Below are positions 3,721-53,636 of a DNA stretch of 64,000 nt, one piece after another. The DNA comes from Ascidia mentula. Lineage: Eukaryota; Chordata; Ascidiacea; Phlebobranchia; Ascidiidae. The notes beneath the pieces are model-generated. The model worked only from the letters and a program-made list of their open reading frames with translations. It was not told the DNA's origin and searched no databases. A program made the translations under genes and the position numbers. How positions within the stretch are numbered: the stretch's first letter is position 1; each line of letters begins with the position of its first letter. The stretch lies in the NCBI GenBank assembly GCA_947561715.1, contig OX387202.1:2542001-2606000 (forward strand), given 5' to 3'.

Positions 3721-6700
3721 AGTAAGCATGTCTTATGGGCCACCAAAATGCACTGGCTTAAATATCTCAGTCATATTTTTTCTTTTGAATATTAGCATTG
3801 GGTTGCAGTGAACATGTTATAAATATTTAGTGAGTTTGAGTTCCAAAACAAAATATCCAGAAATGCCCTGAAGCGTGTTTTGAATTTTCATCTGACATGT
3901 TAGGACTTACAGACAGGGTCAAATAGCCTACAGTAGAAGAAACTTCAAAACTACAATTACCTTTGGAGGAGAAATGTGTAGTGGTAATATTAATTGTTGT
4001 TGTACCTTATGTTTCCTTACCCTGCTGGTTTGGATGGGATTCACCATGTGATCATGTGACCCTGTGACCTTATGACATTGTGGGTTGATGCTATTGAGGT
4101 CAATGTGCTGGTGCTCAGTGCTTTGTGTTATGTGCATGGTTGTGGCAAGTTGTTTTACTTTATTGTTAATATAAATTGATATACTTGTTTAATGATTCTA
4201 TTTGAATAGGAAAAAGATTCTGTTTGAATAAGATATGTTAATAAATTTCTGGAATATTGGGTAATGACTCCCAAAGGCCAAAAACTGCATTTTACATACT
4301 GTCAAGGACTAAAGACTGTCCAACAGATGCAGATTCAAAAATTTCTAATATTTTATGATTTTTATTGATTTCCACTGTAAACTAACTTTGGTGTCGTTGT
4401 ATAAAGGAGAGATAGGCCTTGCATAAAATCACAGTACTATCGCCGCACAACACATGTATATACTAAAAAAGGCCCAAAGCGTATAACTATATTATGACCG
4501 AGAGTTAAAACCAAAGTCATTGTAACCACGCGTTCAACGCATGTCCGAGTTGTGATGTCCAATAAAACGACATGGGAAAAAAGAAGAACTCATTTCCGGT
4601 TTAGGTCAATTCCTGACCGGACAATTTAATAGGAAAAACCTGCCGAGCTGGTGGCAGGTGAAAAAATTGTAGCCGGTAGAAGCAGCCACATTATAGATGT
4701 GTTATAAACCATGTAATTTGAGCAATAAAGTCATATAGGTAACTTAGGCAACCAAACTAACTATGTAAATCAAGTTAAAATAATTACAGACATTTCTTTG
4801 GCAAATAATAAATAAAGGTTGATTTAAACACAAGTACTTCTTTCGCAAATGATAAATAAAGCTAAAATAAACATAACTATTTTTAGTTATTCTGAAAACA
4901 AAGTCTACCTATACATAAATAACCTATTAGGGCACTTAGTTAATTAAGCTATATAATTAACTGACGTAATCGACCAAATCGGTCAACTTCAAGTTGCATT
5001 CAAGTTGCGCAACAACCGCAGACTATATAAGCAGAGCGACTAGCGCCTGCCAAATCAGTGTGTTTTAACTGTTGCTGTGTAAGGGTCTAGGCTGTTGGTT
5101 CTGCTTTAGTACACTGTATAGGAGCCCCAATTGTACTGTACTGTACTTGGATTTATTCGTTGGATTATATCAATAAATGGATTTATGAACAACTTTGGAC
5201 TGGCTTGAAGCTTGGTGGATGTATGTGTTTAGTCGGGAGTTAGACTTTTTAGAAGACGCACAGACTTGTGTAAAGGAGTTCTTTAACTCCAACAGTAAAC
5301 CTTGAGATAGAGAAGGCAAGTTGCCTACGAGGCCGAGTTGCCAACGAGACTCAGTCGGATCCGTTAGGTGCGAGGCCGAGACGCAGTCGTACCCCACGGT
5401 CACCAAGCGGGGACTTACCCCGACAACGGGTAAACCGACAACTGGTGCCCAGAAGTTTGGCGAGTTCACTGCACAAGTCAGTTTCATCAAAACTTCTTCG
5501 GATATTATTCCGACTATCTCCGGATTTAGCAGTCAAATTTCCCGCCGAACGGGTTAATTCACACCCGTTCCAGTTCCAGCAGCCTACCTAGCACAGCAAC
5601 AGCAAGCAGTCAACTGCACCAGTCATTAACAAACAAGAAGACAACCTCCGGCAACTGTTTGAATTATTCGGATTTATACGTATTATACGGATTTATACGG
5701 AATTATACGGATTTATACTGATTACGGATTATACCCGCAACTGGTCTGCCCTCATCCTTTTTAAAGAAAAGAATACCCTTATCAGGCGCCAAACGGAATT
5801 ACCTTACTATTGGATTTACTACAGCTTGTTCCTAATTACATCCCATAAGGAGAAAGAACACTGGAACTACAGGAAAGTGCCATCAGGAAGAACAGCTTAT
5901 TCAACAAACATTTATAGCATCAAAACGCTAATATAAAATCATCACGTTGCCGCACGTGGTAAAGTCCGCAACTTTGGCAGAGAAAGGCAATAAAAAACGC
6001 AAAACTGTTCCACCTGGTAACTCAATTGCATCTAGAACTAGATATCAAACTCAAATAAGAGCAAGTATGGAAACCCCGGCCGACACCTTGTGGGCTGAAA
6101 ATCAAGGAAAAACACTGCCACCTGATAATCCCACAGTTTCAGGTCGCACTTCCCCCAGACCAAACACAAATGATGTAGAAAGTTTGGGCAGAAACCCATT
6201 TAGTATACCTCCCTCCCAAGATAAGCATGCTGACATAAGGCCATCCAACACCGACCAACATGTTTTTACAAACGCACCTTTTCCACGTCAAACGTTTAAC
6301 TTCACAGCTGGAATTAAAATTCCAAAACTATGGTCGCAACACAACTACCGCTCTTATTTTCTATACCTCGACCGATACTTTCAAACGTATAATATAATGG
6401 ACGACAGAGACAAATTTGCTCAACTTTTGTCAGGATTTTCACAAGAACAATGTGCCAGATATGAGCACGTTATTGCACAGGCAGCTATTTCACTTACCCC
6501 TTATACAACTCAAAATTCTTTAATTCGCTTGTCCACTGGAACAAGCAGCACAGCTTGGCTCTCAAAGCTAAAATCTTTGAGGTTAGATTCAGGTGAACTT
6601 CCTTCAACTTTCATGGGAAGATTATGCGCAGTGTGCGCAAAAGACCCAATCTATGACGAGACAACACGCCAAATTGTGGTGGACAATTTTCTTGATAAAA

Positions 6701-9700
6701 TGCCAAGGGACGTCAGCAATGTACTTCGCGCCCAACACCCAGACATATCTCTAGAAGAGCTGGGGTTGCTGGCTGACAGAATCATTACGCCAACTGATTA
6801 TAGTGTACCGGAAGATCAGACACAAAACAATGAAATGCAGAGAATTACCGCTCAGATACAAGAACTGTTTACTGAGTTAAAGTCTGATATAAGCAATCAA
6901 AGACAACAAAGTCGCAGAAATTTTGTTGAACAAAACAAAAGTAACAATATGACCAACCGACGAAAGTTTTCATACCACCCGACAAGACAAGAATATGCAC
7001 AACAGTGTAGAAATCAAAACGGTTATTACGAGCAACAACAAGGAAATCACAGACAGCCCTTCCGACAATGCCAAAGGCAAGGGCAAATAAATACTCAGTC
7101 TACCCAGCACCAACACCAGTCAACAGATGGCTTGTGTTTTTATCATGCACGCTTTGGTGACAAGGCGTTAAAATGCAACAAACCTTGCAGTTACAATCAA
7201 GTCAATAATATCAACATTGGTAGGCCTATGAACGAACCGAATCAGATTCCAAAAGCACCAAATCGACGGCAATATTCCGAGTCGGCCTCAAACTCTTTGC
7301 CGCATGTCTACGACAAAAATAATAAAATGTCATTTCTGTTGGACACTGGATCATCCAAAAATTTCCTCCCAGTTACACAGCACCACACCCAAGAAGTTGA
7401 ATCAGATTTTATTGGACCAGGCGGAGAGTCCATACCCTACTTCGGACAAACTGTACTCAACATTGACATTGGCTTCGGCAACATGCCTGTAACTTTCTCT
7501 GTTTGCAAAGTTAAAAAACCTGTGCTCGGATACTACTTCCTTCAAAAGCACGACTTGTTTATCAGACCTGATAAAAATCTGTTGCAGTCATCACAAAACA
7601 GGAAATCAGTTCAATTTAACATGAAAGAAAGCTCGAAGGAAATAAATACAGTCCTTGTAAAAGTTCCGCATCGAGACAGTCATGCAAATAACACTCTTAT
7701 CAAAACAACTACAAAGGACAAGCCTAGTATTGTTGTGGCAAACACACTTGGCTCAACAGACGTGCCCCAACATCAACAAAAAACTAAACTTCACTCTTCT
7801 TCAACTGCAGATAAATTGCCTCAGTACAAAACCAAAAAGGCCAGGTACCCAAGCGTCAGAAAACGCCAAAGTAGCAATGCAACAATTACAGGAGGAAACA
7901 ATCCTCGCTTCCCAAAGCAGTCTTTTGAACCGCAACAAAAACTGCATTTCAACTCTCCTTTTTCCGGTGATGGAAGTAGGAAATATTTTTCCAAATTCAA
8001 CTGCGAACAGTTCCGTATGCATCAATCAGAAGCGACCATCATGCGGAATGATCGCCATGAAATTTCAAGGTATGACTACTCCGGTCTTGGTGAAGTCATC
8101 CATAAAGTCACAAGACTTTTACAATTTACAAATATAGTGAGCCGTCTGTGTTTACTGAAGGCCGCATAAAATTTCCAACATCCGGCATCTGCACAAATGT
8201 TGATAAATCAACAAAGCACACTTTTTACATAGATTCGTTACATTTTTTATGTTTGACCCACCGAAACGTTGTATGTGTTTATATATGTATAAGAACCGAA
8301 TCAATGCTTTCACAACACAATTTCACTCCGCCAATGTAATCTCATGCAACGTGCATCGCCTTTCTTTCTGCAACTCTCAAATCAGGATATAAATTCCTGA
8401 GGCAGCTATCTCATGCGACGCGCATCCTTCAACACGTAAACATCAGCAGTGATCAACCCCACAAAACCTTATGATAACTGAATGGGGTCACTCGATCAGC
8501 GACTGCGACAGCCGACATATTAATGCAATTGTGCTGTTCAAATAAATATAAGTCATGAGATCCCTACGTTTGTAATCTATTCGCGACAAGACTCCGTTCC
8601 ACTGAACCTGATTTGGGCCCAGTCGGGTGACGTGGAATGGATCTTCTTGCAATAAATAACGTAGATCTTCACTTCATTTCGCGATTTGTATTTACCTCGA
8701 GGAATGCGAATAGCGTTTTTATCTTCAACATATAAGGCATTTTACAGCCATTTACAGCCTTGTTCATGAGGACACTTCTGTCCAATATCTCACTTTTTCT
8801 GATATCAAATGGCACCAACGTGGAAGTAGTTGGTACCCTATGTAATCACTCTTCCACAGTTCAAAATTTTGAAGCAATTTTTCAAGCCATTTCACGATAC
8901 AAACAACGAATGCGTGTGTACCTACTTACACCTTGCTTGCAATTTCAATGGTGTAAAGCCTAATAACGCTATAAACAGTTTCGCAAAGCGAAATAATAAA
9001 AGAGATATATAGTCCACATAGTGGCAACTATTAATAATCAGACGCTTACTTAACATCAATTATACGCTTGTTACTGTGTTAATAACACCAGCTATCGCCT
9101 ATGTATCAATGTAAAATTTGTGTATATGTATTCTCGTTGCTCTCCATAATGTACTAAAATAATCTGTGGATCTACAATTATATCTTTGTAAATGTCTCCT
9201 CGTCTAAACAATCGTGTCCCGTGATTGCTTTGTTATATGTATATATGTTACAATCGAACAACGGAAATTTGTGTAAATATATATATATAGCAAAGCTGCA
9301 GACAGGGTGTGTACACGCACTGTTTCGACCTGTAAGGTCTCATCAGTGCAGCTGTTGAGTGGCACTGTGCTAGCTTTCACACTAGCAGGCACACTAGTTT
9401 CCACTTTGTGGTACCTTTCGGTCAACGTCGATCTGCAGGGTACCCTATACTAGGTACCGAACAACAGAGACGACGAACCACTGTGGAGCGCACTATGGCC
9501 AAACGGAACTGCTTGGAAACCGATAGCGCAAAAGGCAAAAAACACCAATGTAATATATGTGCAAAAAAAGCCATAATATTGCAAAGCTGCAGACAGGGTG
9601 TGTACACGCACTGTTTCGACCTGTAAGGTCTCATCAGTGCAGCTGTTGAGTGGCACTGTGCTAGCTTTCACACTAGCAGGCACACTAGTTTCCACTTTGT

Positions 9701-12700
9701 GGTACCTTTCGGTCAACGTCGATCTGCAGGGTACCCTATACTAGGTACCGAACAACAGAGACGACGAACCACTGTGGAGCGCACTATGGCCAAACGGAAC
9801 TGCTTGGAAACCGATAGCGCAAAAGGCAAAAAACACCAATGTAATATATGTGCAAAAAAAGCCATAATATTGCAAAGCTGCAGACAGGGTGTGTACACGC
9901 ACTGTTTCGACCTGTAAGGTCTCATCAGTGCAGCTGTTGAGTGGCACTGTGCTAGCTTTCACACTAGCAGGCACACTAGTTTCCACTTTGTGGTACCTTT
10001 CGGTCAACGTCGATCTGCAGGGTACCCTATACTAGGTACCGAACAACAGAGACGACGAACCACTGTGGAGCGCACTATGGCCAAACGGAACTGCTTGGAA
10101 ACCGATAGCGCAAAAGGCAAAAAACACCAATGTAATATATGTGCAAAAAAAGCCATAATATTGCAAAGCTGCAGACAGGGTGTGTACACGCACTGTTTCG
10201 ACCTGTAAGGTCTCATCAGTGCAGCTGTTGAGTGGCACTGTGCTAGCTTTCACACTAGCAGGCACACTAGTTTCCACTTTGTGGTACCTTTCGGTCAACG
10301 TCGATCTGCAGGGTACCCTATACTAGGTACCGAACAACAGAGACGACGAACCACTGTGGAGCGCACTATGGCCAAACGGAACTGCTTGGAAACCGATAGC
10401 GCAAAAGGCAAAAAACACCAATGTAATATATGTGCAAAAAAAAAGCCATAATATTGCAAAGCTGCAGACAGGGTGTGTACACGCACTGTTTCGACCTGTA
10501 AGGTCTCATCAGTGCAGCTGTTGAGTGGCACTGTGCTAGCTTTCACACTAGCAGGCACACTAGTTTCCACTTTGTGGTACCTTTCGGTCAACGTCGATCT
10601 GCAGGGTACCCTATACTAGGTACCGAACAACAGAGACGACGAACCACTGTGGAGCGCACTATGGCCAAACGGAACTGCTTGGAAACCGATAGCGCAAAAG
10701 GCAAAAAACACCAATGTAATATATGTGCAAAAAAAGCCATAATATTGCAAAGCTGCAGACAGGGTGTGTACACGCACTGTTTCGACCTGTAAGGTCTCAT
10801 CAGTGCAGCTGTTGAGTGGCACTGTGCTAGCTTTCACACTAGCAGGCACACTAGTTTCCACTTTGTGGTACCTTTCGGTCAACGTCGATCTGCAGGGTAC
10901 CCTATACTAGGTACCGAACAACAGAGACGACGAACCACTGTGGAGCGCACTATGGCCAAACGGAACTGCTTGGAAACCGATAGCGCAAAAGGCAAAAAAC
11001 ACCAATGTAATATATGTGCAAAAAAAGCCATAATATTGCAAAGCTGCAGACAGGGTGTGTACACGCACTGTTTCGACCTGTAAGGTCTCATCAGTGCAGC
11101 TGTTGAGTGGCACTGTGCTAGCTTTCACACTAGCAGGCACACTAGTTTCCACTTTGTGGTACCTTTCGGTCAACGTCGATCTGCAGGGTACCCTATACTA
11201 GGTACCGAACAACAGAGACGACGAACCACTGTGGAGCGCACTATGGCCAAACGGAACTGCTTGGAAACCGATAGCGCAAAAGGCAAAAAACACCAATGTA
11301 ATATATGTGCAAAAAAAGCCATAATATTGCAAAGCTGCAGACAGGGTGTGTACACGCACTGTTTCGACCTGTAAGGTCTCATCAGTGCAGCTGTTGAGTG
11401 GCACTGTGCTAGCTTTCACACTAGCAGGCACACTAGTTTCCACTTTGTGGTACCTTTCGGTCAACGTCGATCTGCAGGGTACCCTATACTAGGTACCGAA
11501 CAACAGAGACGACGAACCACTGTGGAGTCTCATCAGTGCAGCTGTTGACGCAAGTGTAGAAGCTAGCACAGTGCCACTCAACAGCTGCACTGATGAGACC
11601 TTACAGGTCGAAACAGTGCGTGTACACACCCTGTCTGCAGCTTTGCAATATTATGGCTTTTTTTGCACATATATTACATTGGTGTTTTTTGCCTTTTGCG
11701 CTATCGGTTTCCAAGCAGTTCCGTTTGGCCATAGTGCGCTCCACAGTGGTTCGTCGTCTCTGTTGTTCGGTACCTAGTATAGGGTACCCTGCAGATCGAC
11801 GTTGACCGAAAGGTACCACAAAGTGGAAACTAGTGTGCCTGCTAGTGTGAAAGCTAGCACAGTGCCACTCAACAGCTGCACTGATGAGACCTTACAGGTC
11901 GAAACAGTGCGTGTACACACCCTGTCTGCAGCTTTGCAATATTATGGCTTTTTTTGCACATATATTACATTGGTGTTTTTTGCCTTTTGCGCTATCGGTT
12001 TCCAAGCAGTTCCGTTTGGCCATAGTGCGCTCCACAGTGGTTCGTCGTCTCTGTTGTTCGGTACCTAGTATAGGGTACCCTGCAGATCGACGTTGACCGA
12101 AAGGTACCACAAAGTGGAAACTAGTGTGCCTGCTAGTGTGAAAGCTAGCACAGTGCCACTCAACAGCTGCACTGATGAGACCTTACAGGTCGAAACAGTG
12201 CGTGTACACACCCTGTCTGCAGCTTTGCAATATTATGGCTTTTTTTGCACATATATTACATTGGTGTTTTTTGCCTTTTGCGCTATCGGTTTCCAAGCAG
12301 TTCCGTTTGGCCATAGTGCGCTCCACAGTGGTTCGTCGTCTCTGTTGTTCGGTACCTAGTATAGGGTACCCTGCAGATCGACGTTGACCGAAAGGTACCA
12401 CAAAGTGGAAACTAGTGTGCCTGCTAGTGTGAAAGCTAGCACAGTGCCACTCAACAGCTGCACTGATGAGACCTTACAGGTCGAAACAGTGCGTGTACAC
12501 ACCCTGTCTGCAGCTTTGCAATATTATGGCTTTTTTTGCACATATATTACATTGGTGTTTTTTGCCTTTTGCGCTATCGGTTTCCAAGCAGTTCCGTTTG
12601 GCCATAGTGCGCTCCACAGTGGTTCGTCGTCTCTGTTGTTCGGTACCTAGTATAGGGTACCCTGCAGATCGACGTTGACCGAAAGGTACCACAAAGTGGA

Positions 12701-15700
12701 AACTAGTGTGCCTGCTAGTGTGAAAGCTAGCACAGTGCCACTCAACAGCTGCACTGATGAGACCTTACAGGTCGAAACAGTGCGTGTACACACCCTGTCT
12801 GCAGCTTTGCAATATTATGGCTTTTTTTGCACATATATATATATATATTTTGATGTACTATAAAATATATTTGTGTGTGTACTTTGTACGTCGCTCTCTT
12901 CAACAGAACCAACAACTTGCGTTCATATATGGACCGCAAGTACCAGACATGCGGGGGGGTATTATGTCGCCGCACAACACATGTATATACTAAAAAAGGC
13001 CCAAAGCGTATAACTATATTATGACCGAGAGTTAAAACCAAAGTCATTGTAACCACGCGTTCAACGCATGTCCAAGTTGTGATGTCCAATAAAACGACAT
13101 GGGAAAAAAAGAAGAACTCATTTCCGGTTTAGGTCAATTCCTGATCGGACAATTTAATAGGAAAAACCTGCCGAGCTGGTGGCAGGTGAAAAAATTGTAG
13201 CCGGTAGAAGCAGCCACATTATAGATGTGTTATAAACCATGTAATTTGGGCAATAAAGTCATATAGGTAACTTAGGCAACCAAACTAACTATGTAAATCA
13301 AGTTAAAATAATTACAGACATTTCGTTGGCAAATAATAAATAAAGGTTGATTTAAACACAAGTACTTCTTTCGCAAATGATAAATAAAGCTAAAATAAAC
13401 ATAACTACTTTTAGTTATTCTGAAAACAAAGTCTACCTATACATAAATAACCTATTAGGGCACTTAGTTAATTAAGCTATATAAATAACTGACGTAATCG
13501 ACCAAATCGGTCAACTTCAAGTTGCATTCAAGTTGCGCAACAACCGCAGACTATATAAGCAGAGCGACTAGCGCCTGCCAAATCAGTGTGTTTTAACTGT
13601 TGCTGTATAAGGGTCTAGGCTGTTGGTTCTGCTTTAGTACACTGTATAGGAGCCCCAATTGTACTGTACTGTACTTGGATTTATTCGTTGGATTATATCA
13701 ATAAATGGATTTATGAACAACTTTGGACTGGCTTGAAGCTTGGTGGATGTATGTGTTTAGTCGGGAGTTAGACTATTTAGAAGACGCACAGACTTGTGTA
13801 AAGGAGTTCTTTAACTCCAACAGTAAACCTTGAGATAGAGAAGGCAAGTTGCCTACGAGGCCGAGTTGCCAACGAGACTCAGTCGGATCCGTTAGGTGCG
13901 AGGCCGAGACGCAGTCGTACCCCACGGTCACCAAGCGGGGACTTACCCCGACAACGGGTAAACCGACAGTACATAGAATACTTTTGACCACTCATTTTTC
14001 TGCCAATTCCAATTGCATTTTTTACCTAATTTGTATAAATTTTTAGGTATATACATAAGATTCATTTTTTTATCAAATAATTTTCTCAAGAAAATCTGCA
14101 GATAATCTCAAATAGGTATTTGAACTAGATTGTTGCCAATTCCTGTTAAAAGCTCCTTTTCATACCGAAATCCGGATTTAAATGGATTTTCCTGCACTAA
14201 ATTGTTCACAAAGCCACGCTCCAGTTATATGCTTTCACTTATTCAAAACCATTTTTGTGGTATTCCTAAAATTTCTGTGTGGAAATGATAAATTAAAAGT
14301 TATTTCCGGTGGTTTGACATCACAAACTTTTACACTAAATACGAATAAACATTTTCACACAAACATGCAGTAGCCTATATGTAGATTTCTTCTTAATAAG
14401 AGATAGTGTAGTAGCGTGTTCAACAAAAAAAGTTCAATTAATAATCGTCACATTAAACAATACCACCTAATTGTACAACATTTTTAGTTACAAACGAATT
14501 CTCTTTCTTAAGAAACAAATGTTTCAGTAAAATCCGAAAATAAGATGAAAATTGCCCATTTTACACATAAATTTGCGTAAAATTTTCAGCCCTAAATTTG
14601 CATTATTCCAGGTTTGATGATGATGCTGGTGATGATTGGGAAGTGTTATCACATACCGAAACGAGGACACAAGACTCTGGATATTCATCGATATCAGCAA
14701 GTTATATCATAAAAGCTCCTCGCAAAGGTCAACAGTTTTCTGTCTTTAATACAACATGAGTTTTGCCCCAACATAGGATAAAACATGATAAACAACTTTT
14801 AATTAAGCAACTTACTGCAGTTTTATACAATAATGTTAAACCATTGCTTGATGTTATGTATCAGAGTGAATCATAATTTATATATAAGTGTAAATTTACA
14901 GTTCCAACGAAGAGATTAGATCCAATGACCTTAAGTATGAGTTTGTGGGATAGAGGCAATCAGAGGAAACCTGAACAAAATGCAATAATCCAAGATTGCA
15001 TGAGGGCACATGAAGCAAATGATGAGGAGATAATTTCTTCAGTAGCTTCCTCACTTCCTGATTGCCTCGACTTACACTGGTGTAGAATCACTCAGGAAGA
15101 GATTGAAGCCCTCTCCTTTGTTATTAAAAGAAGAAACAAATCGGTATCATTTTCTAGTTTATGAACCTTCTTACACACACAATAAGCAAATATAGAAAAG
15201 ATTTGCAAAAACCTGTAAGATACAAATCAGAAGCCAGGTGAAACATAACAATTGGTTTTTGAGAAATTTCATATCACCACAATAAGAAAATATAAAAATT
15301 AACATTCATGTTTTGCAAAAATTGAGTTTAACTTCGTCACTCAGGATGTGTGGTCCTTATACTTTCTAGCTTGACATGCGAGTTCGTTGAAAACCATCTA
15401 CCCCTTCCCTGTTTGTATTCCAATTTCAAATTCATTGTTTCATTCAGATGAGGAAACTCAATCTCTCCAGGAACAAGACAGGAGATAGTGGAGCAGCTGC
15501 ACTGGCTCGTTGCATTCAGAACATTGAAGAACTTCATCTGGGTAATTGTAGCATAGGAGATGAGGGTGTGAATGTTCTCTCAGAGAAGATTAAAGACTTG
15601 CATAAACCTGTAAGATACAAATCAGAAGTCAAGTAAAGCTTGGCAATTTGTTATTGTGTAATTTCATATCACCACAATCAGAAAAAATAAAAATTAACAT

Positions 15701-18700
15701 TCAAATTTTGTAAAATTGAGTTTACTTCGGTACTCAGGATGTGAGGTCATCATACTTTCTTGCCTGACATGTGAGTTCGTTGAAAACCATGCAACCCTTC
15801 CTTGTTTGTATTCTAATCAATTTCAAAATTTCAAGTTTATTGTTTTGTTCAGATGCGGAAACTCATTCTCTCCTTCAACAAGATAGGATATAGTGGAGCA
15901 GCTGCATTGGCTCGTTGCATTCACAACATTGAAGAACTTGATCTGGATGATTGTGGCATAGGAGATGAGGGTGTAGAAATTCTCTCAGAGAAGATTAAAG
16001 ATTTGCAAAAACCTGTAAGATACAAACCAGAAATTATGTAAATCATTGGATGACCATGTAAAATTGAGTTTATTTCGGTACTCAGGATGGGTGGCCATTA
16101 ATCTTTCTTGCTTGACATGCGTGTTCGTTGAAAACCGTGCACCCCTTCCTTGTTTGTATTCTCACTAATGTTCTAATTTAAATTCATTCTTTTATTCAGA
16201 TGCGGAAACTCAATCTCACCTTAAACAAGATAGGAAATAGTGGAGCAGCTACATTAACTCGTTGCATTCGCAACATTGAAGTACTTGATCTGGATAGTTG
16301 TGGCATAGGAGATAAGGGTGTGGAAATTCTCTCAGAGAAGATTAAAGATTTGAAAACACCTGTAAGATCAGAATTCAAGTAACTATTGGTTGTGTAGTAA
16401 CTTTGTATCACCACAATAAGAAAATATAAAAAATAACATTGAAAATTTTGTAAAATTTTAACTATTTCAGTACTCAGGTTGTGTGGTCTTTATAATTTCT
16501 TGCTTGATATAAATGTGCGTTGAAAACCAAAAGGGATGTACCCCTTCCTTATATGTATTCCAACAAATATTCTAATTTTAAATTTGTTTTTTTTTATTCA
16601 GATGAGGTATCTCAGTCTCTCCTGGAACAAGATAGGAGATAGCGGAGCAGCTGCATTGGCTCATTGCATTTTCAACATTGAAGAACTTGATTTGAGGCTT
16701 TGTGACATAGGAGATGAGGGTGTGGAAATTCTGTCAGAGAACATTAAAGATTTACAAAAATCTGTAAGACATAGTTAGTTAACTTGTCACTTGTGCTAGG
16801 AACAAAGTTTGGTCCTTTTTCTTTGTTCCATTGTTCATATTCTGTTTTGTGACATGGGAGATCATGGTGTTGAAATTCTCTCAATAGATTATAAAACATT
16901 ACAGGCATCTGTAAAATTAACTTTTACTATTTCAGATTGTTTTATCACACATGTTTGTTGTGGTAGTTTATTTTCGTTACCCACAGTAAATATAAAATAA
17001 TCAGATATCGTCCATTTTCTGCTGTTGACATAGTGATTTAATATTAAAAGATATAGTTAGAAACAATAATTAATTGTTTATTTTGGAATAGTTTGTGATT
17101 TTATACCAATGTTGTGTAAAATTATTGTTTGCATTAGTATGTGTCAATGAAAACAGGCTTTTTGGAGCAATTCTTTTTTTAAAGTTATTGTGTAATATCT
17201 GTTGTTTAGATGAAATTTGTGGTTCTACACAGCAACAATTTGACAGATGAAAGTGCTGAGTCATTGGCTGGATGTAAGCACAAAGTTAAAAGGTTGTCGG
17301 TCAATAGTAGGAACTTTACACAGGCGGGGGAGGATCTCATCAATTCCAAAGTGAGAAAAATAACATTGCATGTTTTTTGATAAAAGCAAAGGACTAAACT
17401 GTTCATTAGGTTTACATGTTTGGAAGCCCAGGCATGAAGTCCAAGGCCTCACAGGGTGCTTGATTTTTCAAATCACGCTCCGACTTGTCAGGAAAGAGTG
17501 GCTGATCGAGCTAGGCTGCAATGCCTGGGCTTCCAAGCCTACAAAGCTAATGATCGTGATACGCTGTTATCGCCAACCAAGGCCGGCGTAGTTGGGCGAT
17601 CCTGCCAATCATATGATTGCATGAAATATTACTGCGTGTATTGAACTATTCATTGCAATACACATTTCTTTTGATCCAAAAATTGCTTTTGTCTATAGCA
17701 AGGTTTTATAAAATGTTTAATTTACAACTATAAAGAATCTTACTATAAATACTACTACTAACATTCTAATAACTTATGTGTGACAAATAATTATATTTTA
17801 TATATTTTACAGAAGCATGAAGAATATGAAGTAATCCAAACCATGTCATCAGTGGTTGGTGTGGAAGGTGGCAAACTTGAAGTGGTTGGTTGTGTTGTTG
17901 ATATTCCTCCTAATGCACTGAATGCAAATGCCAAAATTTGGTTGAGAAGTTACTATGGAAATATCAAGCCAAATGTAAGTGGTTTTATACAACGCTGTAA
18001 TATTTTATGCAATGTCATGATTGGCTGGATCGCCCCACTGCGCAGGTCCCTGTTTGGCAATCACAGCTATCGTATCGAGATAATTACGTTTGCAGGCTTG
18101 ACAGCCCAGGCATTGCAACCTAGCTGGATCAGCCACTTTTTCCTGACAAGTCGGAGCAAGATTTGAAAAATCAAGCTCCCGGTGAGGTTTGAACTCACGA
18201 CCCTGGGCTAACCAGGCCCAACGCTCTACCAACAGAGCTACAGGAGCTCAGTGGTTTCACGGGGTATATTGTGGCCAAGGTACACTGGTGCGCAAGCGCA
18301 CAACTTGCCAGGCAACCTTCACATATACGTATGGGATCTCTACCACCGTATCAGATAACGCAGTAATATTTCATGCAATGGCATGATTGGCAGGATCGCC
18401 TCACTGCGCAGGACCTTGTTTGGCGATCACAGATATCGTATCGCGATCATTAGGTTTGCAGGCTTGACAGCCCAGGCGTTGCAACCTAGCTGGATCAACC
18501 ACTTTTTCGTGACAAGTCGGAGCAAGATTTGAAAAATCAAGCTCCCGGTGAGGTTCGAACTCACGACTCTGGGCTAACCAGGCCCAACGCTCTACCAACT
18601 GAGCTACAGGAGCTCAGTGGTTTCACGGGGTATATTGTGGCCAAGGTACACTGGTTTTATACAAGAGTGATTTGAATACAGGATATTATATGTTTTCTAA

Positions 18701-33063: not shown

Positions 33064-36000
33064 ATGGATCCAGAAAAATTCAAATCTGAAAGTTCACAAA
33101 TGAAATCAAAGACAGGATCTTCGATAAATGAGCAACTTCCACTAAAGCAGAAAAAACATCCTTCTCATAAAAGGTATGTAATTGCCACAACATGACTTTT
33201 GTGCATGGAAGCTAACCAGACCAACAGTGTAATGCCATGAGACTGCAACGTATGCTGCAATAGGCAAGCTTAGTGAAACTTAATTTTGAGTATATATAAT
33301 GTCTGTTTCAAGGCAACCATCCCTCGGGTCAACATACCTGGCTTCCTGTTACTTTCTTTAGTAATATAATATTCTCAGTAGTTCCTCCAATCAAAATATG
33401 TTTATTCTTTTAGGCCATGTGAATCCAAACAGCATATGTTACAGAGTTAGCATCGAATCGCATTGAGTCTAAGTATAGAATCAGAATAGAATGAACAAAT
33501 ACCAGACTGCAACACAGGTAGCCCAGAGCATAGAAAATAATTTACGCAATATCTTGAACTAACACTGAACAGCAATGTGGAGCCAATAATATGAATTGTG
33601 TATAAGCTGCAGACAAAGTCGTCTTATAGTCACACCAGCTGCACTGATGAGACCTTTTAGGTCGAAACAGTGGCCATCTGTCTGCAGCTTATACACAATG
33701 CATAACACTGAACAGTTCACTTGGGAAACAGGATTTGCTTACACACACATGCATTAAACATATTGGACAACTCATCGAGTTGACGTTGTGGTGATGACGT
33801 ACAATATTTCAGCTTGGTATTTATAAGATCATAGCAAGACTATGCAGATGTGCTACAGATTACAGCGTAACTGAAACCTATAAAGAACTTTTTGTCATGC
33901 GAATATTTCAACAATGAAAAATTGGAAGAAGCTGCCCATCCAAATGTTGATGTACCAGCTATTGTGCATTTAGATAGAGTGATTTATTATGTCATAATGA
34001 AAATTTAACAATCTATGCTGGCATCAAGCAGTTGTATTCAGGCTGAAATGTTTCTTTGAAATTGTTCCAAAGATCTATTCAAAGTAGCATAAAATCCGCC
34101 AAATTTGTGTTGCTTCAAACTTTTTATGATAAGTCAGAGCAAAATACAAATGAACAAACACTCGGAGAAGTTTGGCCCATGGTCCCATACCATATCAATA
34201 CTTCACTGACTGAACTGTCTTCACCTGCATTTAGTCTGTTTTGAATGACTTTTGGATAATTTGGTGAAAGTAAACATGCCTTATTGGTCACCCAAATACA
34301 CTGGCTTCAATTTCATAGGTCATATTTTTTGAATATTAGCATTGGTTTGTAGTGAACATGTTATTAATTTCTTCATAAAAACCATCATGGTGACCTTGAG
34401 TTCCAAAACAAAATACCCAGATGTTCCTTGAAGCATGTTTTAAATTTTATCTGACACGTTAGGACTCACAGACAGGATCAAATACAGTAGAAGAAACTTT
34501 ACCAAAACTCCTTGGAGGGAAATGTCTGGGACTTAGAAATTTCATGTTCTCTATAAAAGATTTTTATTGATTTCTACTGTAAACTAACTTTGATGTCATT
34601 GAATAGATGAGAGATGGGCCTTGCATAAAACCACAGTAGGTAGAATACTTTTGACCACTCATTTTTCTACAAATTCCAATTGCATTTTTTACCTAATTTG
34701 TGTAAATTTTCAGGTATATACAAAAGACTCACCATTTGTATCATATAATTTTCACTTATTCACTACCACTTCTGTGATATTCCTGAATTTTCTGTGTGAA
34801 AATATTTTTTTTTTCTTTTAATACCATATATAGATAGTTTAATATATAAAAATTACCAACTAAAAAGGTTTGATGAAGGTATATGTGGTGATGAGCAGAT
34901 GGAATCACAGACAGAAACGGAGACAAAAGCAACTTTTCAAGCCAGTTGTATATGGTGGGCAGTGTACAGAATAGAATGCCAAGCACAGAACTTGCAAATG
35001 CAGGCCATGGTCAGATTGGGAATATCAGGTGTACATAACAAGTTTACATTGGAGGCTAAGACAAGCTTGTGTTTGTATGTTCGTTGATAGTTGAGCCAGC
35101 GTCATCAGAAAGTAGTATTGGAAATTTACACAACACCACAGTATGTGCTTATAGAACTTATTTTTTAGTACTGATAAAAAAAGGTTATCTAAGGGGTAAA
35201 AGTTATTTCTAGTGGTTTAACATCACAAACTTTTGCACTAAATCTGACAAATATTATTGCATAAATATGCAGTAGCCTGTATGTAGATTTCTCCTTGGTA
35301 AGAGATAGTGTAGTAGCTAAGTCATGTTCAACAAAAAAGGTGTAATTAAATCTTTATATTAAACAATATCACCAAAAAGGACACAAGACTCTGGATATTC
35401 CTCTGGACATTCCTCTCGACATTCATCAATAATATCAGGTGATGACCATAGGCGTTGATTTAGGGGTGACTGGGGTGACATGTCATCCCTCACAAACAAA
35501 CAGGGGTGACAACGTATGTATTGTCACCCCTGGATTTCGTTTAAATTAAAAATTATTGTCAGAAAAACCACATACATTATATTATGCATAAAGCTAGTTT
35601 CAAACGACCTGTATTATCACCGTCACAATCATGACAAACACAAGTGTTTCGTGGATTATTACGCAGCGCAGCAGTTGTTGTAGCATAATGGTAAAAATCA
35701 GCATTGTTGCGTAATAGATTTGTTTGTCACTTCATAATTACTAAATCTGCAATAGACCGAGTAAAATAAAAATGTGCTGCTTTCAGTAAGGGGGGCAATA
35801 ATTAAAGTGATTAAAATTTAGTGCTACAACAACATGATTCTGTGTTAAAACAAAGTGACACGAAAGGGAATTTGCGTCGTATACGTATGTTCAGGGCGAT
35901 ACGATTGATGAATGTTTTTTGCGTGTTTCTATAAATTGGAAAAGTCACCCTTAATATTTTACAAAACGTTAAAAAATCGACGCCTATCGTGATGACATAA

Positions 36001-39000: not shown

Positions 39001-41745
39001 AATATTTGTTATGTAACATCTGTTGTTTAGATGAAATATGTGAGTCTACAAGACGACAGTTTGACGGATGAAAGTGCTGAGTCATTGGCTGGATGTATGC
39101 ACAATATTGAGATGTTGTTTGGCAAAACATGTAACAACTTTACACAGGCAGGGAAGGATCTCATCAATTCTAAAGTGATTGAAATAAAATGCATGTTTTT
39201 GTTGAAAACAAAATACTAAACTTTTCATTACAATTAACATTTCTTTTCATCCTAAAATTGCTTTGGTCTGTTACAAGGTTTTATATGATGTTTAATTTAC
39301 AACTATAAAGAAACTTATTATATATACTACTAATAACATTGTAATGACTGATGCATGACTAATAATTATATTTTCTATATTTACAGAAGCATAAAGAGTA
39401 TGAAGTAATCCAGTCAACATCATCAGTTGTTGGTGTGGAAGGTGGCAAACTTGAAGTGATGGGTTGTGTTGTTGATATTCCTCCTAATGCACTGGATACA
39501 AATGCAAAAATTTGGTTGAGAAGTTACTATGGAAATACTAAGTCAAATGTAAGTGGCTTAGCCATTGCACTTAGACTTAGCTGACCCCTGCGATTAACTT
39601 ATCAATTTCTAAAAAAAGTATATGTTCTGGTCCAAACACTTAATCTGTTTAAACAAATGACAAAAAATATTGATGCATCAACAATACACAATTTTTACAA
39701 CCATGTACATACATTGACAAAATTTTATGTTTGTTGTCTTTACAAATGCAAGATGTAATTTCTTGGCTGTTAGGAAGTAAAATGTTTCATTATTCAACAA
39801 TTATATTTAAATTTTTATTATTGGGTTTTCATTCCACAGAAGGAAATTACTCCATTGTTGTATTGTGGACCAAGCGGGTTAAAGTTCACCAAAGATGTCA
39901 CCATCACTTTACCAACATGTTTTGTGTGTGAAGATCTTCATCAACTTGTTGTGGTAAGTTTAAACATTCATCTTGTTGCCGTTGCATGTTTCATATTTTA
40001 AAATAAAAAAATAAATCATCTTGAATTAATTCAGTCAACATAGAAGTACAAGTTTTAAAATGTATCATGGAGTAATGAAGGTAATTTATAATTCTTATGT
40101 AGAAACACTAGATACACTTTTATTTTAAATGATGTTGTAATGAAACTGTTTAATAAAATGTTAAGGTTGAGACAAGTCAAGATGGTAAAACATGGGAATA
40201 TTATCAAACTTTATCCTACAATGGAGAGGGAAAGATTACATTTAAAGTAACTCATTTTACCTGGTAAGTGTATTTTTTTAAAGAAATGTAAAAAAAATTG
40301 CCTGAGTCTTGTTTTTGTACTTGAAGGTTTCGCGTTATTCGGAAGAAACTCTTTGGTTGGTCAAAGGAGAAAATGGTCCTGGGTGGATTTCCATCAAAGG
40401 AAAGCTCTGACTCTGCTGAAAGACTTTGGAGACTTGTTATTTGTGACAACTTGCAGTTCAACTTAAAGACTGATGATAACCTCAATAAGTTGCTTGGTTT
40501 CACTTTAGGGTAATGAATCACATCGCAATTGTGATAAACAATTGCTTAAAATAATGTTTGGTAGAGATGTTATAGGTTTTCAGTTAGTCTATCGGTAGTC
40601 AAATCCCTACCATCAAAGATCACAACAATACAAAAAAATCTCTTTTTTGATCACTCGACCAACATTAAAAGCAAACTTTTGAATTTTTGAAAATATGTAC
40701 ATAAATCTTTACAAAAAAAAACAATTTGACCATACAACGGCAAGCTAATCAATGCGAAAATATCAGTAACATTCTAAAACAATGATATTTTGTCGTGAGA
40801 TTCTTGATAATGCTAAAATAAATTTTTAAAAATATTTTCTCATTCACAAGCATTAAACTTCATAGTTTGGTTATTATTAATCAAATCCAAGGTGTATCAA
40901 AATAAATTTTCAATAGGGTAAACAGTGAAATGCCATCCATGATGTAACACTCTAACAAGTCACTTAATAACAATACCAATTGTGCCTAATCCGTTTCAAT
41001 AAATTCCTTTGCCAATACATTTTTTTGTATGTCTAAACAAAGTACATAATATTCTTCATTACTTGTTTACCAGATCAGATCAAAATGAATCTACACTCGC
41101 ACTCAAAAGTGAATCTGGTAGAGTGACATTCAACAAAAATCCAATCAAATTGAAGAATACATTTTCAAACAATTGGACACAACATGAGGTTTTGTTTAAG
41201 TTTTCTCCATACAGTGGTTATGAAATGGTTAATGTTGAATTGGACTTTCATGGGAAGCCATTCACAACAGATTTTGGTATAAAAGTCAATACAGAAGACA
41301 CACAAGAAAAACAAGTAAGTTAAAACATAGCCCCTTGCACCCATAATTATAAGATTTGTAAAACTTTCTGCATTTTACTTTTTACGTTAAATATGTATGT
41401 GTTGGTTTACAGAAGACAAGACAGAAATCTGATTTGAAATTTGCTAAGTCACAAGATCCATTGCAACAAGCAAGTATGACTAAGCACTGATTAGTTTTGA
41501 AGTTGTAAACCTCTTATATTTACCTATAATTTCCAGGTACTGCAATTACTGGCTGTACTTTAATTGAACCACATATTAACATAGCAGGAGGCTCAGTTAA
41601 CACAACAAACACTCAACAGCCGATGTCAACTTCATCACCAGGTTTGTGTGGTGTCTGCTAATTACACACAGCCATAAACTGAGGAAACTGCTAAAATTTG
41701 AATATATTTTTAGATGCTGGTCCTTCATGCAGTAAACATTATTAG
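33064..41745 (+). CDS. Gene B: LRR-ZU5-UPA-like protein (16 exons, exon 2 uncertain)
   Basis: Exons: 33064-33173, 35380-35438 (uncertain), 36187-36410, 36807-36968, 37205-37366, 37604-37765, 38008-38169, 39031-39174, 39387-39548, 39840-39953, 40166-40263, 40327-40509, 41074-41314, 41413-41473, 41537-41641, 41714-41745. The joined frame is 2181 bp (726 residues), open and phase-consistent. LRRs span residues 132-347, ZU5 about 396-520, the UPA-like region to 661 and the conserved tail to 726. Exon 2 is the weak point. Relative to gene A its acceptor and first half are missing, and a MITE sits where its end should be. The AG at 35378-35379 and the GT at 35439 would still give an in-frame exon, but the acceptor has no pyrimidine tract. 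If exon 2 is skipped, exons 1 and 3 join out of frame. Confidence 0.7.
33573..33702 (+). mobile_element. 130-bp retrozyme copy in intron 1 of gene B
   Basis: The insertion is flanked by TAACACTGAACAG on both sides (33560-33572 and 33703-33715), a perfect 13-bp target duplication. Copy C shows the empty site (about 51730-51745). It carries one complete hammerhead ribozyme plus an inverted copy of the ribozyme end (TATAAGCTGCAGACA at 33601 and its complement at 33680), so it resembles a miniature inverted dimer. Confidence 0.85.
33637..33689 (+). ncRNA. Type I hammerhead ribozyme
   Basis: Stem I AGCUGCA (33637-33643) pairs with UGCAGCU (33683-33689). Core CUGAUGA is at 33644-33650, stem II GACC/GGUC has loop UUUUA, GAAA is at 33664-33667, stem III is ACAG/CUGU, and predicted cleavage follows C33682. 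All core bases are intact, and stem II and III loops differ from the array units. Confidence 0.88.
34865..35190 (+). other. Extra exon-2-like segment in gene B intron
   Basis: Sequence at 34869-34930 (peptide FDEG...GDEQMESQTETE) resembles the start of exon 2 of gene A (FDDDAGDDWEVLSHTETR). It is also present in copy C at about 53946-54010 but absent from A. It may be a duplicated, decayed exon 2. I do not include it in the gene model because no normal splice acceptor precedes it. Confidence 0.4.
35447..35988. mobile_element. hAT-like MITE in exon 2 region of gene B
   Basis: The 542-bp insertion is flanked by GTGATGAC on both sides (35439-35446 and 35989-35996), an 8-bp target duplication typical of hAT elements. 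Its ends are inverted repeats (ATAGGCGTTGATTT and, on the other strand, ATAGGCGTCGATTT). No transposase is encoded, so it is non-autonomous. The sequence on either side is continuous in copy C (about 59440-59450). Confidence 0.85.
36807..38169 (+). repeat. Four tandem LRR exon cassettes of gene B
   Basis: Exons at 36807-36968, 37205-37366, 37604-37765 and 38008-38169 are 162 bp, phase 0-0, and closely alike. The first two share nearly identical flanking introns (for example about 36994-37090 with 37392-37490), which indicates very recent duplication of an exon-plus-intron unit of about 400 bp. Differences cluster at the variable LRR positions after each LxL strand. Confidence 0.85.
38502..38812 (+). 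mobile_element. PLE-end relic with 13-bp target duplication in gene B
   Basis: GTTTTATCACTTA flanks the insertion on both sides (38489-38501 and 38813-38825). The insert starts with an inverted copy of the PLE 3' end (CACTAAAAAAAAGTAGC), continues into PLE 3' non-coding sequence and ends like the right flank of the PLE at 50099-50177 (GGCCTGCATCTCCAGTTTT against GGCCTGCATCTGCAGTTTT). It lies in the intron before exon 8 of gene B. Confidence 0.8.
39555..39596 (+). pseudogene. U1 snRNA fragment in intron 9 of gene B
   Basis: The words TTAGCCATTGCACTTAG and GCTGACCCCTGCGATTA follow the middle of U1 snRNA and match the longer U1-like copy in the same intron of gene A (18710-18870). Both ends of U1 are missing here. 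Its position directly after the shared ZU5 exon shows the U1 copy was already in the common ancestor of the two introns. Confidence 0.7.
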
Positions 41746-42465
41746 TTTCATCTTCCAATCCTTGTTGTAAATTTTGCAATTCGAGATTCAACACGTTTTT
41801 ATGCAATGTGACATTATCTATGCAGGAATGCGTCCAAAATATTGAGCACTTTTCCTGCAATAGTCAGACAATTTCTCTGTACGAGTCTTAAGCAACAAAT
41901 GCACTTTAATTGTTTTCTTGGTTTATTATATTTGCACTTGTTTATTTTCTGATGCAGTTTTGTGTGTCCCAAAATTAACTAGACATTTTCCAAACTTGGA
42001 TTTATTTGATTTGCACTTCCGTAAATACTTCTCTTTACTGGGGTACAGTGTTACTCAGCTATTCAATTTATTTGAGTATTTCGGTAAATGATTTTTCATT
42101 CATTTGTGGAAAATTTTTATCGGTTAGTGCAAACGAAGTCATTGAATGATTTGAGGAATGTGTGAATTTTGTATTATTAGTACCTATGGGCTATTTTTGA
42201 CGCGAAATGTCAGCAAAACGTACGCAAGTCGATTCTAGGTCTCATAAGAATTATTATCGTGATTTCAAACTTTTTTCATCCAAGAATAAATCTTTTTTCA
42301 TCCTACCCTCGCATAATATTGCTAACTTACAATGTTCCGATCATGGTAGATTAGACTAAACACTTGACTCAAAATTTAACCTCTGTGCATCAAAAACATG
42401 GTGACATAGCGCATAAAAAGCAATAAATTTAAATCCTAAGAGCAAAACGTCTTTGATGAAGTGAC

Positions 42466-42520
42466 TTTGACGAAAGTACTGAGTCATTGACTGCCTGTGT
42501 GGACAATAAAGTAAACGTAC
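42466..42520 (+). pseudogene. Exon 8 remnant in the 3' flank of gene B
   Basis: The stretch around GACTTTGACGAAAGTACTGAGTCATTGAC resembles exon 8 (GTTTGACGGATGAAAGTGCTGAGTCATTGGC at 39058), the TDESAESLA segment. It has no splice context and occurs again at about 42556+20000 in the flank of copy C. It suggests an older truncated family copy downstream of each gene. Confidence 0.45.
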
Positions 42521-42689
42521 ATATTGCAAACTTTAGTTTGAGTCAGATTGTTGCATGAAACAATAGAAATGTCTTTCTCAATTTGCATTCATTTCGAAAA
42601 TTGTAAAGTATAAAAAACGAACCTTCAGTTATCAGTTGTCGCTGTGAATTCTATGAAGTCGAACGATCAGAAAATTTTTTTTCAATTCC

Positions 42690-43400
42690 CGACCGGACAA
42701 TTCAGTAGGGAAAACTTGATGTGCTGGTGGCAGTTGAAAAAATGCCAAGTCATTTAGGGAATTAAGCCGTATGGGTAACCTAGGCAACCAAACCAGAAAC
42801 GTAAATAAGGTTAAAAGAAACCTGGGTGTTTATTTGGCAAAAAATAAATATGGTGAAAGTAATCACAACTACTTCCAGTTAATTGGAAAACAAAGACAAA
42901 TTAAGCATAAACAACTCATTTAGACCATATAGGTAGTTAAGCTAAATAATTAAATGACGTAATCAACCTAACCGGTAAACAAATCCAAGTTGCGTAAACA
43001 ATTCCAAAAAGACAAAAAAAGGGCATCAAACCTTGGGGTCAACCGCAGGCTAACAAACAGCAACACTAGTGCCTAAAGAAGCATTGTTTTTTTACTGTTG
43101 CTGTGTTAGGGTCTAGGCTGTTGGTTCTGGTTTAGTTCTGTTTTATGTCGTGACGCAACTGCTTCGCTGCGCTGCATTCCTTCACTGGATTATCGACAAT
43201 AAACGTATTGATGAACAACTTCGGACTTGATAGTTGGGAGTTGAACTACTCAGAAGACGCACAGACTTGTGTAAAAGAGTTCTTTAACTCCAGCAGTAAC
43301 CTTAACATAGGGAAGGCAAGTCGTTTACGAGATCGAGATGCCATCGAGACTCAGTCGGATCCTTCGGGTGCGTAACCCGAGACACAGTCGCACACCTCGT
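42690..43400 (+). mobile_element. Diverged gypsy LTR remnant
   Basis: Several blocks match the LTR of 4438-5440 in order: CCGACCGGACAATT, GGTAACCTAGGCAACCAAAC, GGGTCTAGGCTGTTGGTTCTG, AGACGCACAGACTTGTGTAAA and GACTCAGTCGGATCC. It is older than the element in gene A and has no paired LTR nearby. Short adjoining sequence to about 43900 may be element interior. Confidence 0.7.
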
Positions 43401-44811: not shown

Positions 44812-44872
44812 CAACCAGTAACGCTAAAAAAAGCAGTAGCTTTTTATACAGGATCAGCCTGGCTTATAAATC

Positions 44873-44911
44873 AGGAATATATATTTCGCCCCATGGGCAT
44901 CTTCAGTTCCT
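44873..44911 (-). ncRNA. Putative minimal hammerhead in PLE end (left)
   Basis: Mirror image of the motif at 50011-50049, identical in sequence on the minus strand. Confidence is limited by the two-base-pair helix III and the unpaired base next to stem II. Confidence 0.55.
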
Positions 44912-45240
44912 TCAGTAAACACATTAAATGATATCAAAACGTCTGAAAAACAGCAACATTAGAGAAAGGGCTAGTGATAAAAAACAACAACAACTTCGAT
45001 CTTTTGCAATGCAACTGTGCGAAGGCAAAACACTGAGTTACCCGCCTTGCATGAGAAGGTAAGAGATTTGCGTACACTGTGGAGAAACCGCATCAGACGC
45101 GGGTGGAGATAAGGAACGCGGCGATAAGTCGAACGGCGTAAAACCACCTTAAAGACACACACGAAAAACACGAAAAAACATGTAGCCATTAAAACGATTA
45201 AAAGCAATAAAAAAGAGAGAAAGATTTTTAAGAAAACACA

Positions 45241-47430: not shown

Positions 47431-47491
47431 CCAAGAATGGTCTAATGTGTTCCAAGATAAGTCCGCAAACAAAAACCACCTAAAATTACCA

Positions 47492-49681: not shown

Positions 49682-50010
49682 TGTGTTTTCTTAAAAATCT
49701 TTCTCTCTTTTTTATTGCTTTTAATCGTTTTAATGGCTACATGTTTTTTCGTGTTTTTCGTGTGTGTCTTTAAGGTGGTTTTACGCCGTTCGACTTATCG
49801 CCGCGTTCCTTATCTCCACCCGCGTCTGATGCGGTTTCTCCACAGTGTACGCAAATCTCTTACCTTCTCATGCAAGGCGGGTAACTCAGTGTTTTGCCTT
49901 CGCACAGTAGCATTGCAAGAGGTCGAAGTTGTTGTTGTTTTTTATCACTAGCCCTTTCTCTAATGTTGCTGTTTTTCAGACGTTTTTATATCATTTAATG
50001 TGTTTACTGA

Positions 50011-50049
50011 AGGAACTGAAGATGCCCATGGGGCGAAATATATATTCCT
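50011..50049 (+). ncRNA. Putative minimal hammerhead in PLE end (right)
   Basis: AGGAA, then core CUGAAGA (N7 = A is allowed), stem II GCCC/GGGC with loop AUG after one unpaired U, GAAA, a very short AU stem III, a UA cleavage site and UUCCU pairing back to AGGAA. Minimal type I hammerheads with tiny helix III are known from PLEs. The same words persist in the PLE remnants at about 2020-2060 and 24690-24720. Confidence 0.55.
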
Positions 50050-50189
50050 GATTTATAAGCCAGGCTGATCCTGTATAAAAAGCTACTGCTTTTTTTAGTA
50101 TTATAAAATAAGTTGCAGTGATCGCTAGGCCTGCATCTGCAGTTTTGGGTAGATCCCAATATTTCAATTTTTGAAGTCAACCAGTATCG

Positions 50190-53190: not shown

Positions 53191-53423
53191 AGTACTTATT
53201 GTTATGTGAATGTTTTAACAATGCAAAATTGGAAGAAGCTGCTCATCGAAATGTTGATGTACCAGCTATTGTTCATTTAGCAACTTCGTCATAACAAAAA
53301 ATTAACAATCTGTGCCAGCAATGAGCAATTGTATTTAGGCTGAAATGTTCCTCTGAAATTGTTTCAGTAAATTGAAATGTCTGGGACTTAAAAATTTCAA
53401 TTCTTATAAAAGATTTTCATTTA

Positions 53424-53636
53424 TATGTGCGAAAATATTATTGTAAAGCTGCAGGCAGGGTGTGTGCATGCACTGTTTCGACCTATAAGATCTTATCAGT
53501 GCAGCTGTTAAGTGGCACTGTGCTAGCTTTCACACTAGCAGGCACACTAGTCTCCACTTTGTGGTACCTTACGGTCAACGTCGATGTGCAGGGTACCCTA
53601 TACTGAGTACCGAACAACAGAGACGATAAACCAATG
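53424..53636 (-). mobile_element. Decayed retrozyme copy in copy C
   Basis: About 200 bp matches the 291-bp array unit on the minus strand (GCACTGTGCTAGCTTTCACA, CACTAGCAGGCACACTAG). The hammerhead at 53447-53506 has drifted in the core (CUGAUAA) and at the cleavage triplet, so it should be inactive. Similar AGATTTT-type words on both sides suggest a short target duplication; gene B lacks the insert at 34551-34575. Confidence 0.75.

Follow-up and report, generated by a model that had tools for sequence, protein, structure and literature searches.

A Retrozyme Array of Two Opposed Halves in Ascidia mentula and the End-Site Rule It Has in Common with Penelope-like Elements

We have analyzed a 64,000-nucleotide stretch of the Ascidia mentula genome (contig OX387202.1, positions 2,542,001 to 2,606,000; referred to in what follows as the window) that harbors, at ~9290-12838, an array of hammerhead ribozymes in 291-bp units arranged as two mutually inverted halves. 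The array is probably a single insertion of a retrozyme without long terminal repeats (non-LTR), for which a Penelope-like element (PLE) supplied the enzyme; both cut ends of the target would have served to copy one and the same RNA. In the sampled copies the ends of this retrozyme family fall mainly on two sites, each used on one side of an opposed copy, and the opposed PLE insertions examined in the same genome obey the same rule.

Array Structure and Hammerheads

A search of the window with a pattern comprising a 7-bp stem I, CTGATGA, stem II (GACC/GGTC), GAAA, stem III (CAG..CTG), TC and stem I' returns 13 exact, identical full-hammerhead matches; 8 lie at 9294-11392 (minus strand) and 5 at 11583-12806 (plus strand), and none of 100 shuffled controls gives a match. 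Tandem Repeats Finder reports two runs of period 291 with 99% matches, one of 7.7 copies at 9285-11527 and one of 4.4 copies at 11553-12838, and the two are mutually inverted, with arms of up to 1158 bp at 100% identity. An earlier note on this DNA had described 13 intact hammerheads in 291-bp units with opposed halves of about 7.7 and 4.4 units, and had recognized it as a retrozyme array whose hammerheads are complete and of type I; pattern matches, period and copy counts all bear this out, and the core, three stems, open stem I and an NUH cleavage site, here GUC, are found in 13/13 cases. In the representative hammerhead at 11583-11642 (plus strand), AGCUGCA CUGAUGA GACC UUACA GGUC GAAA CAG (14 nt) CUG UC^UGCAGCU, cleavage is predicted after the C at 11635.

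The left half (9290-11527, minus strand, 7.7 units, 8 hammerheads) has its outer end at a position that we call site A, ~11 nt past the cleavage site in unit coordinates, while the outer end of the right half (11553-12838, plus strand, 4.4 units, 5 hammerheads) is at site B, unit position ~35-39. Between them lies an inner junction (11528-11552) containing ~22 nt of unit, positions 255-234, in minus orientation. The array is flanked by a target-site duplication (TSD) of (AT)n sequence, a 13-bp match ATATATATATATA on both sides whose exact register is not fixable in (AT)n; the left copy, within an LTR element, is at 9277-9289 and the right copy is part of an (AT) run at 12833-12848. A second retrozyme copy in the window (53422-53633, minus strand) is ~90% identical, of single orientation and 5'-truncated, with its 3' end at site B.

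The earlier note had proposed a hammerhead covariance model as a check, and here the outcome is negative, all hammerhead families of Rfam staying below their gathering scores throughout the window. When the Rfam models are run over 9200-12900, Hammerhead_3 (24.9 bits vs 48.5 needed) and RAGATH-1 (28.3-28.8 bits vs 56.3 needed) score below threshold at all 13 places. For the isolated 60 nt the minimum-energy fold is hammerhead-like and the centroid is not (z -1.58, with 15/200 shuffles as good), a competing hairpin is predicted once flanks are included, and the whole 291-nt unit is strongly self-paired (z -3.21).

A scan of 62 stretches with a requirement of at least 10/14 pairs yielded 99 hammerheads, 83 of them with 14/14 pairs, in 32 distinct sequences; 60 are identical to the commonest. 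Because 19 of the 31 other sequences also alter stem or core, the remaining 12 varying in loops only, conservation of the stems is not demonstrated by this count. The 5' ends of the complementary DNA (cDNA) copies provide a further observation, with 6/68 falling within 1 nt of the cleavage site against 0.93 expected (p 3.6e-4), a sign that some templates may have been cut there. Release of 291-nt circles from the array is plausible by analogy with the published family (PMC7229834).

The window contains a second hammerhead repeat at 33637-33689 (element ~33578-33705), with the same stems, other loops and short flanking inverted arms, for which at least 77 genome matches are listed (40 of 1491 candidates scored). 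Outside the host genome the retrozyme core was found in one stretch among viral contigs and gave no match in the genome-contig collection. IMG/VR contig L132 has, at 9950-9974, the same core and stem II in a complete-looking hammerhead whose stems I and III differ.

Ends, Orientation and Targets of the Family

The host genome, searched as 195.8 Mb in 79 contigs, contains 2398 occurrences of the 27-nt hammerhead core at ≤2 mismatches, as compared with 0 for a reversed-pattern control. The host is identified as an animal because its genome gives 36 Wnt-domain matches, Wnt being an animal family. The features by which metazoan retrozymes are recognized are found together: a unit of 291 bp, type I hammerheads, many copies, an animal host, no LTR of their own and, at the loci where a target duplication was found, a length above 4 bp.

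Two sets of loci were used to characterize the ends. Set 1 comprised 40 scored clusters including the window (40 of 1841 candidates scored) and the window copy at 53422-53633, in total 41 loci, which became 39 when L068 and L069, whose flanks match those of L064, were dropped as its segmental duplicates; because selection was by best BLAST score, young and near-complete copies are over-represented in this set. Set 2 was made up of 20 perfect-core matches along one contig (C1), skipping loci already sampled and neighbors within one cluster, and judging from their flanks L084/L085, L086/L087 and probably L088/L090/L091 are likely duplicates.

In copies with ≥93% identity, the 3' ends cluster at 1-15 nt (A) and 30-46 nt (B) past the cleavage site, with five ends outside both groups (85, 101, 123, 278 and 289). 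Using class limits of 17 or less for A and 30-47 for B, which were set after the ends had been seen, the 19/39 opposed loci of set 1 divide into 16 A/B, 2 A/other and 1 B/other, and the 20/39 of single orientation into 12 B, 6 A and 2 other. In set 2, 8/20 loci are opposed (4 A/B, 1 B/other and 3 with neither end assignable), the four that are not A/B being diverged, 78-88% identical to the reference. The 12/20 single loci comprise 4 B, 3 A and 5 unassigned, and here too copies without an assignment are divergent (78-88%). Taking both sets together, the two ends can be assigned in 20 of 27 opposed loci and are A/B in 20/20, for which the chance would be at most 9.5e-7 if ends were independent; none of the 27 has A/A or B/B ends. 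Opposed copies are always minus-then-plus with 3' ends outward, and the plus-before-minus pattern occurs in none of the opposed retrozyme loci. The opposed halves that the earlier note regarded as unusual are, with 19/39 and 8/20 loci, a common form of this family.

TSDs are 12 bp long in 14 of the 27 loci where they are at least 10 bp (range 10-15), a count from which the window was left out for its (AT)n, and at some loci the search gave no TSD of at least 8 bp. The flanks immediately beyond the duplication have a mirrored preference, with adenine at -3 in 43/54 half-sites (p 2.4e-11) and at -2 in 40/54 (p 5.5e-9).

Penelope-like Elements of the Same Genome

The window also includes a PLE, PLE1, at 44824-50179 (end coordinates estimated off alignment output), which is itself in the opposed form, a minus half and then a plus half with 3' ends outward, its left end at its own site A and its right end at its own site B. 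PLE1 has open reading frames (ORFs) at 45241-47556 (minus) and 47366-49681 (plus), as well as a hammerhead-like motif at 50016-50038 and its mirror, and the frame gives RVT_1 and C-terminal GIY-YIG matches, both just under Pfam cut-offs. The protein of a second element, PLE2, is 43% identical to that of PLE1. Three more families, which we name by frame length as the 892-, 801- and 811-amino-acid (aa) families, are recognized by GIY-YIG only, in long frames.

One end is A and the other B in 13/13 opposed PLE insertions examined (PLE1 3, PLE2 2, 892-aa 3, 801-aa 2, 811-aa 3), 5 of which come from the PLE1/PLE2 search list and the rest from 8/17 opposed GIY-YIG pairs. The latter derive from a GIY-YIG search with 121 matches listed (150 of 382 candidates scored), in which neighbors within 8 kb are minus-plus in 17 cases, plus-minus in 0, plus-plus in 6 and minus-minus in 1. 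TSDs of 8-14 bp are present in 12/13 insertions, the array on contig C67 giving only an internal palindrome. A permissive hammerhead pattern, run with no chance control, matches 15/16 fetched PLE 3' stretches, several of them from one family, and PLE1 and PLE2 also.

By eye, and from 3 insertions only, the 811-aa family is nearest to the retrozyme in A-B spacing and target flanks. A motif common to retrozyme and PLE end regions was suggestive by eye and found no support in alignments. The sole match between the retrozyme and a PLE stretch with E <0.01 (L125; 7.3e-6, 75% over 44 nt) covers the hammerhead region of the retrozyme and lies ~300 nt from the L125 PLE's own motif. At L110 and at C67:6134028-6146916 a PLE family forms tandem rows of opposed orientation, 2 copies minus and 3 plus with a period of 2870 bp, like the retrozyme array.

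Proposed Mechanism and Alternatives

That PLEs mobilize retrozymes has already been proposed in print: in PMC7229834, PLEs are named as a strong mobilizer candidate for metazoan non-LTR retrozymes on the basis of common features and co-existence. In PMC11167929 purified PLE protein is described as cutting and extending both strands, and the tail of PLE copies is accounted for by its use of two neighboring internal start sites. The array in the window probably arose along these lines. A transcript of 291-nt units, multimeric or circular and processed by its hammerheads, would be bound by the PLE endonuclease/reverse transcriptase, and the enzyme, probably as a dimer, would cut both strands of an AT-rich target ~12 bp apart. 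Each free 3' end would then prime cDNA synthesis on the same RNA, one from site A, ~11 nt past the cleavage site, and the other from site B, ~27 nt further on. The cDNAs would pass several times round or along the units and be joined where they meet, giving opposed halves with 3' ends outward and a flanking target duplication. We infer a PLE protein as the agent from the A/B rule that retrozyme and PLEs have in common.

A single RNA per insertion is suggested by the variants that the two halves have in common. At 16 polymorphic sites the halves of one locus agree in 165/174 marker comparisons, as compared with a permutation mean of 149.6 and a maximum of 161 in 5000; opposite halves differ at 51/4244 positions (1.2%, window excluded) and different loci at 2.5%. 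Loci L036, L048 and L051 have private variants in both halves that are absent from every other locus, and in L031 one private variant is common to all three units. Of 19 comparisons in which one half or both show a minor allele, 10 agree (sites 16, 65, 75, 193 and 234). The further proposal that this RNA was circular is the weaker one, because a multimeric linear RNA would cross the cleavage site too. One-lap insert lengths were dropped as proof of a circular template, set 1 having been chosen by best BLAST score and set 2 lengths being varied.

The alternatives must be weighed against this scheme. Insertion driven by a long interspersed nuclear element (LINE) with twin priming is improbable, if the least so of the four considered here. 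Both target-primed copying and inversions are commonplace among LINEs, and reverse transcriptases other than those of PLEs abound in the genome, at least 150 non-PLE RVT_1 places being listed from 1254 candidates. In LINE twin priming, however, the inverted side ends at an internal breakpoint instead of a fixed 3' site, whereas both outer ends of the retrozyme are mostly fixed 3' sites; moreover, the form is that seen in 13/13 of the opposed PLE insertions, in a comparison that covered PLEs and took the LINE form from general background.

Self-priming, in which the first cDNA snaps back and copies itself into an inverted half, has been suggested for head-to-head PLE copies (PMC3846280), and it would account for inverted halves with common variants. 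It predicts, however, A/A or B/B outer ends where all assignable loci are A/B, and inner breakpoints one short loop apart, where the offsets in 23 opposed loci (≥93% identity) are compatible with a uniform distribution over the unit (Kolmogorov-Smirnov p 0.62) and the breakpoints are uncorrelated (Spearman 0.13, p 0.55). Since the outer ends are unequal and the inner breakpoints uncorrelated, we disfavor self-priming and consider it slightly less probable than the LINE route. Overlaps at the inner junctions range from -8 to +4 nt, the window being an exception at -25.

Foldback DNA transposons, with long inverted repeats of subrepeats moved by a transposase, are characterized by opposed tandem repeats with target duplications, and in this the retrozyme resembles them. 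Yet 20/39 set 1 loci are of single orientation with variable far-side ends, opposed copies differ in sequence between one outer end and the other, and the A/B rule is common to the PLEs examined in the genome, making an origin of this kind very unlikely. Finally, there is almost nothing to recommend the idea that the array belongs to the LTR element around it, as in plant LTR retrozymes, and moves along with it: the array does sit between young LTRs, but it is missing from 10/10 other copies checked and seems the younger of the two.

Insertion by a PLE enzyme remains, to our minds, the best account of the array, and several observations weigh against it. The class limits for A and B followed inspection of the ends, as stated above, and in 3/19 opposed set 1 loci one end is at neither site. 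A reverse transcriptase was matched in PLE1 alone, under the Pfam cut-off; the places of the 892-, 801- and 811-aa families are not among the matches listed in the RVT_1 search (150 of 1254 candidates scored), and the other, stronger places that it did list mean that further reverse transcriptases are plentiful in this genome. In addition, A-B spacing depends on the family, ~27 nt in the retrozyme and ~30 to 80 in PLEs, and alignment of the retrozyme end region to 18 PLE 3' stretches gives no clear similarity. No strand difference in start site was observed in vitro (PMC11167929). Of the 19 minor-allele comparisons, 9 disagree (sites 40, 42, 133, 140, 145, 203, 214, 259 and 276), and the runs of 7.7 and 4.4 units may reflect later expansion. 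As a side observation, small contigs C15, C21, C49 and C51 give RVT_1 matches in stop-free frames of 3977 to 19197 aa, perhaps runs of N.

Landing Site and Other Features of the Window

The LTR element (4440-13968, plus strand; LTRs at 4440-5440 and 12967-13968) served as landing site only. Its LTRs are 99.1% alike, a young pair as in the earlier note; the relevance for the array that the note saw in the element is not supported. BLAST alignments of 10 other copies, taken from 33 matches to the element of which one is the window, have both flanks continuing uninterrupted without the array (for the empty sites L074 and L078 from BLAST flanks only, the junction not being displayed), and these empty sites rule out the element as a part of the retrozyme. 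With units 99-100% alike and LTRs 0.9% different, the array seems to postdate the insertion of the LTR element. The 8 hammerheads of one half are on the minus strand and the 5 of the other on the plus strand, so that a transcript from the 5' LTR would hold 5 hammerheads, not 13. The element looks non-autonomous because in a Pfam domain search its 745-aa frame (ORF 5932-8169) gives a DUF7041 match under the cut-off and no reverse transcriptase match. Elsewhere in the genome its internal part occurs in rows of copies 5.0-5.1 kb apart, for example four on C69.

Two tRNA-Thr genes (18173-18248 and 18539-18614) are in direct repeat with 366-bp spacing. A pair of 2.3-kb repeats, 40953-43272 and 61041-63375, is 97% alike and ~20 kb apart, and several further repeat pairs are spaced by 19-22 kb, which gives the impression of a large duplication, since diverged, within the window.

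Relation to Known Systems and Implications

As described in PMC7229834, metazoan non-LTR retrozymes are, like the family studied here, tandem type I hammerhead units of ~170-400 bp in thousands of copies, with no LTR of their own, target duplications that exceed 4 bp if present, and PLEs in the same genome. The GC content of 10001-12000, 0.477, fits the limit given in the text of that report (<50%) and exceeds that in its figure legend (<45%). In contrast, the description as available mentions neither opposed halves nor a pair of fixed end sites nor the A/B rule, and the word "inverted" does not occur in its main text. Plant LTR retrozymes are also non-autonomous, hammerhead-bearing repeats, but their hammerheads are of type III and lie within LTRs, and their target duplications measure 4 bp (PMC7229834), while the array in the window has type I hammerheads and the LTRs around it belong to another element. 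PLEs with hammerheads and a tail (PMC11167929, PMC3846280) are similar in their head-to-head copies, an optional tail on one inverted pseudo-LTR, short target duplications, AT-rich targets and two adjacent start sites of reverse transcription. The retrozyme differs from PLEs in that its 291-nt unit has no known coding frame, in its A-B distance of ~27 nt and in the lack of a clear common end sequence. In the portion of the open-licence PubMed Central literature covered, end-site and strand footprints for retrozymes were not found.

With less confidence than for the array itself, though we still lean in its favor, we propose that a PLE protein inserts animal retrozymes by a fixed two-strand reaction using one RNA, nicks 12 bp apart and two start sites, one per strand. 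Opposed arrays would then be the direct result of copying a single small circular RNA in rolling fashion from either side, and the one-A-one-B form would be normal PLE insertion chemistry. The rule on end sites and strands amounts to a footprint for which genome sequence is sufficient evidence. In the genome studied here it links one retrozyme family with PLEs, and it renders the two-strand, two-site model of PLE insertion directly testable in vitro.

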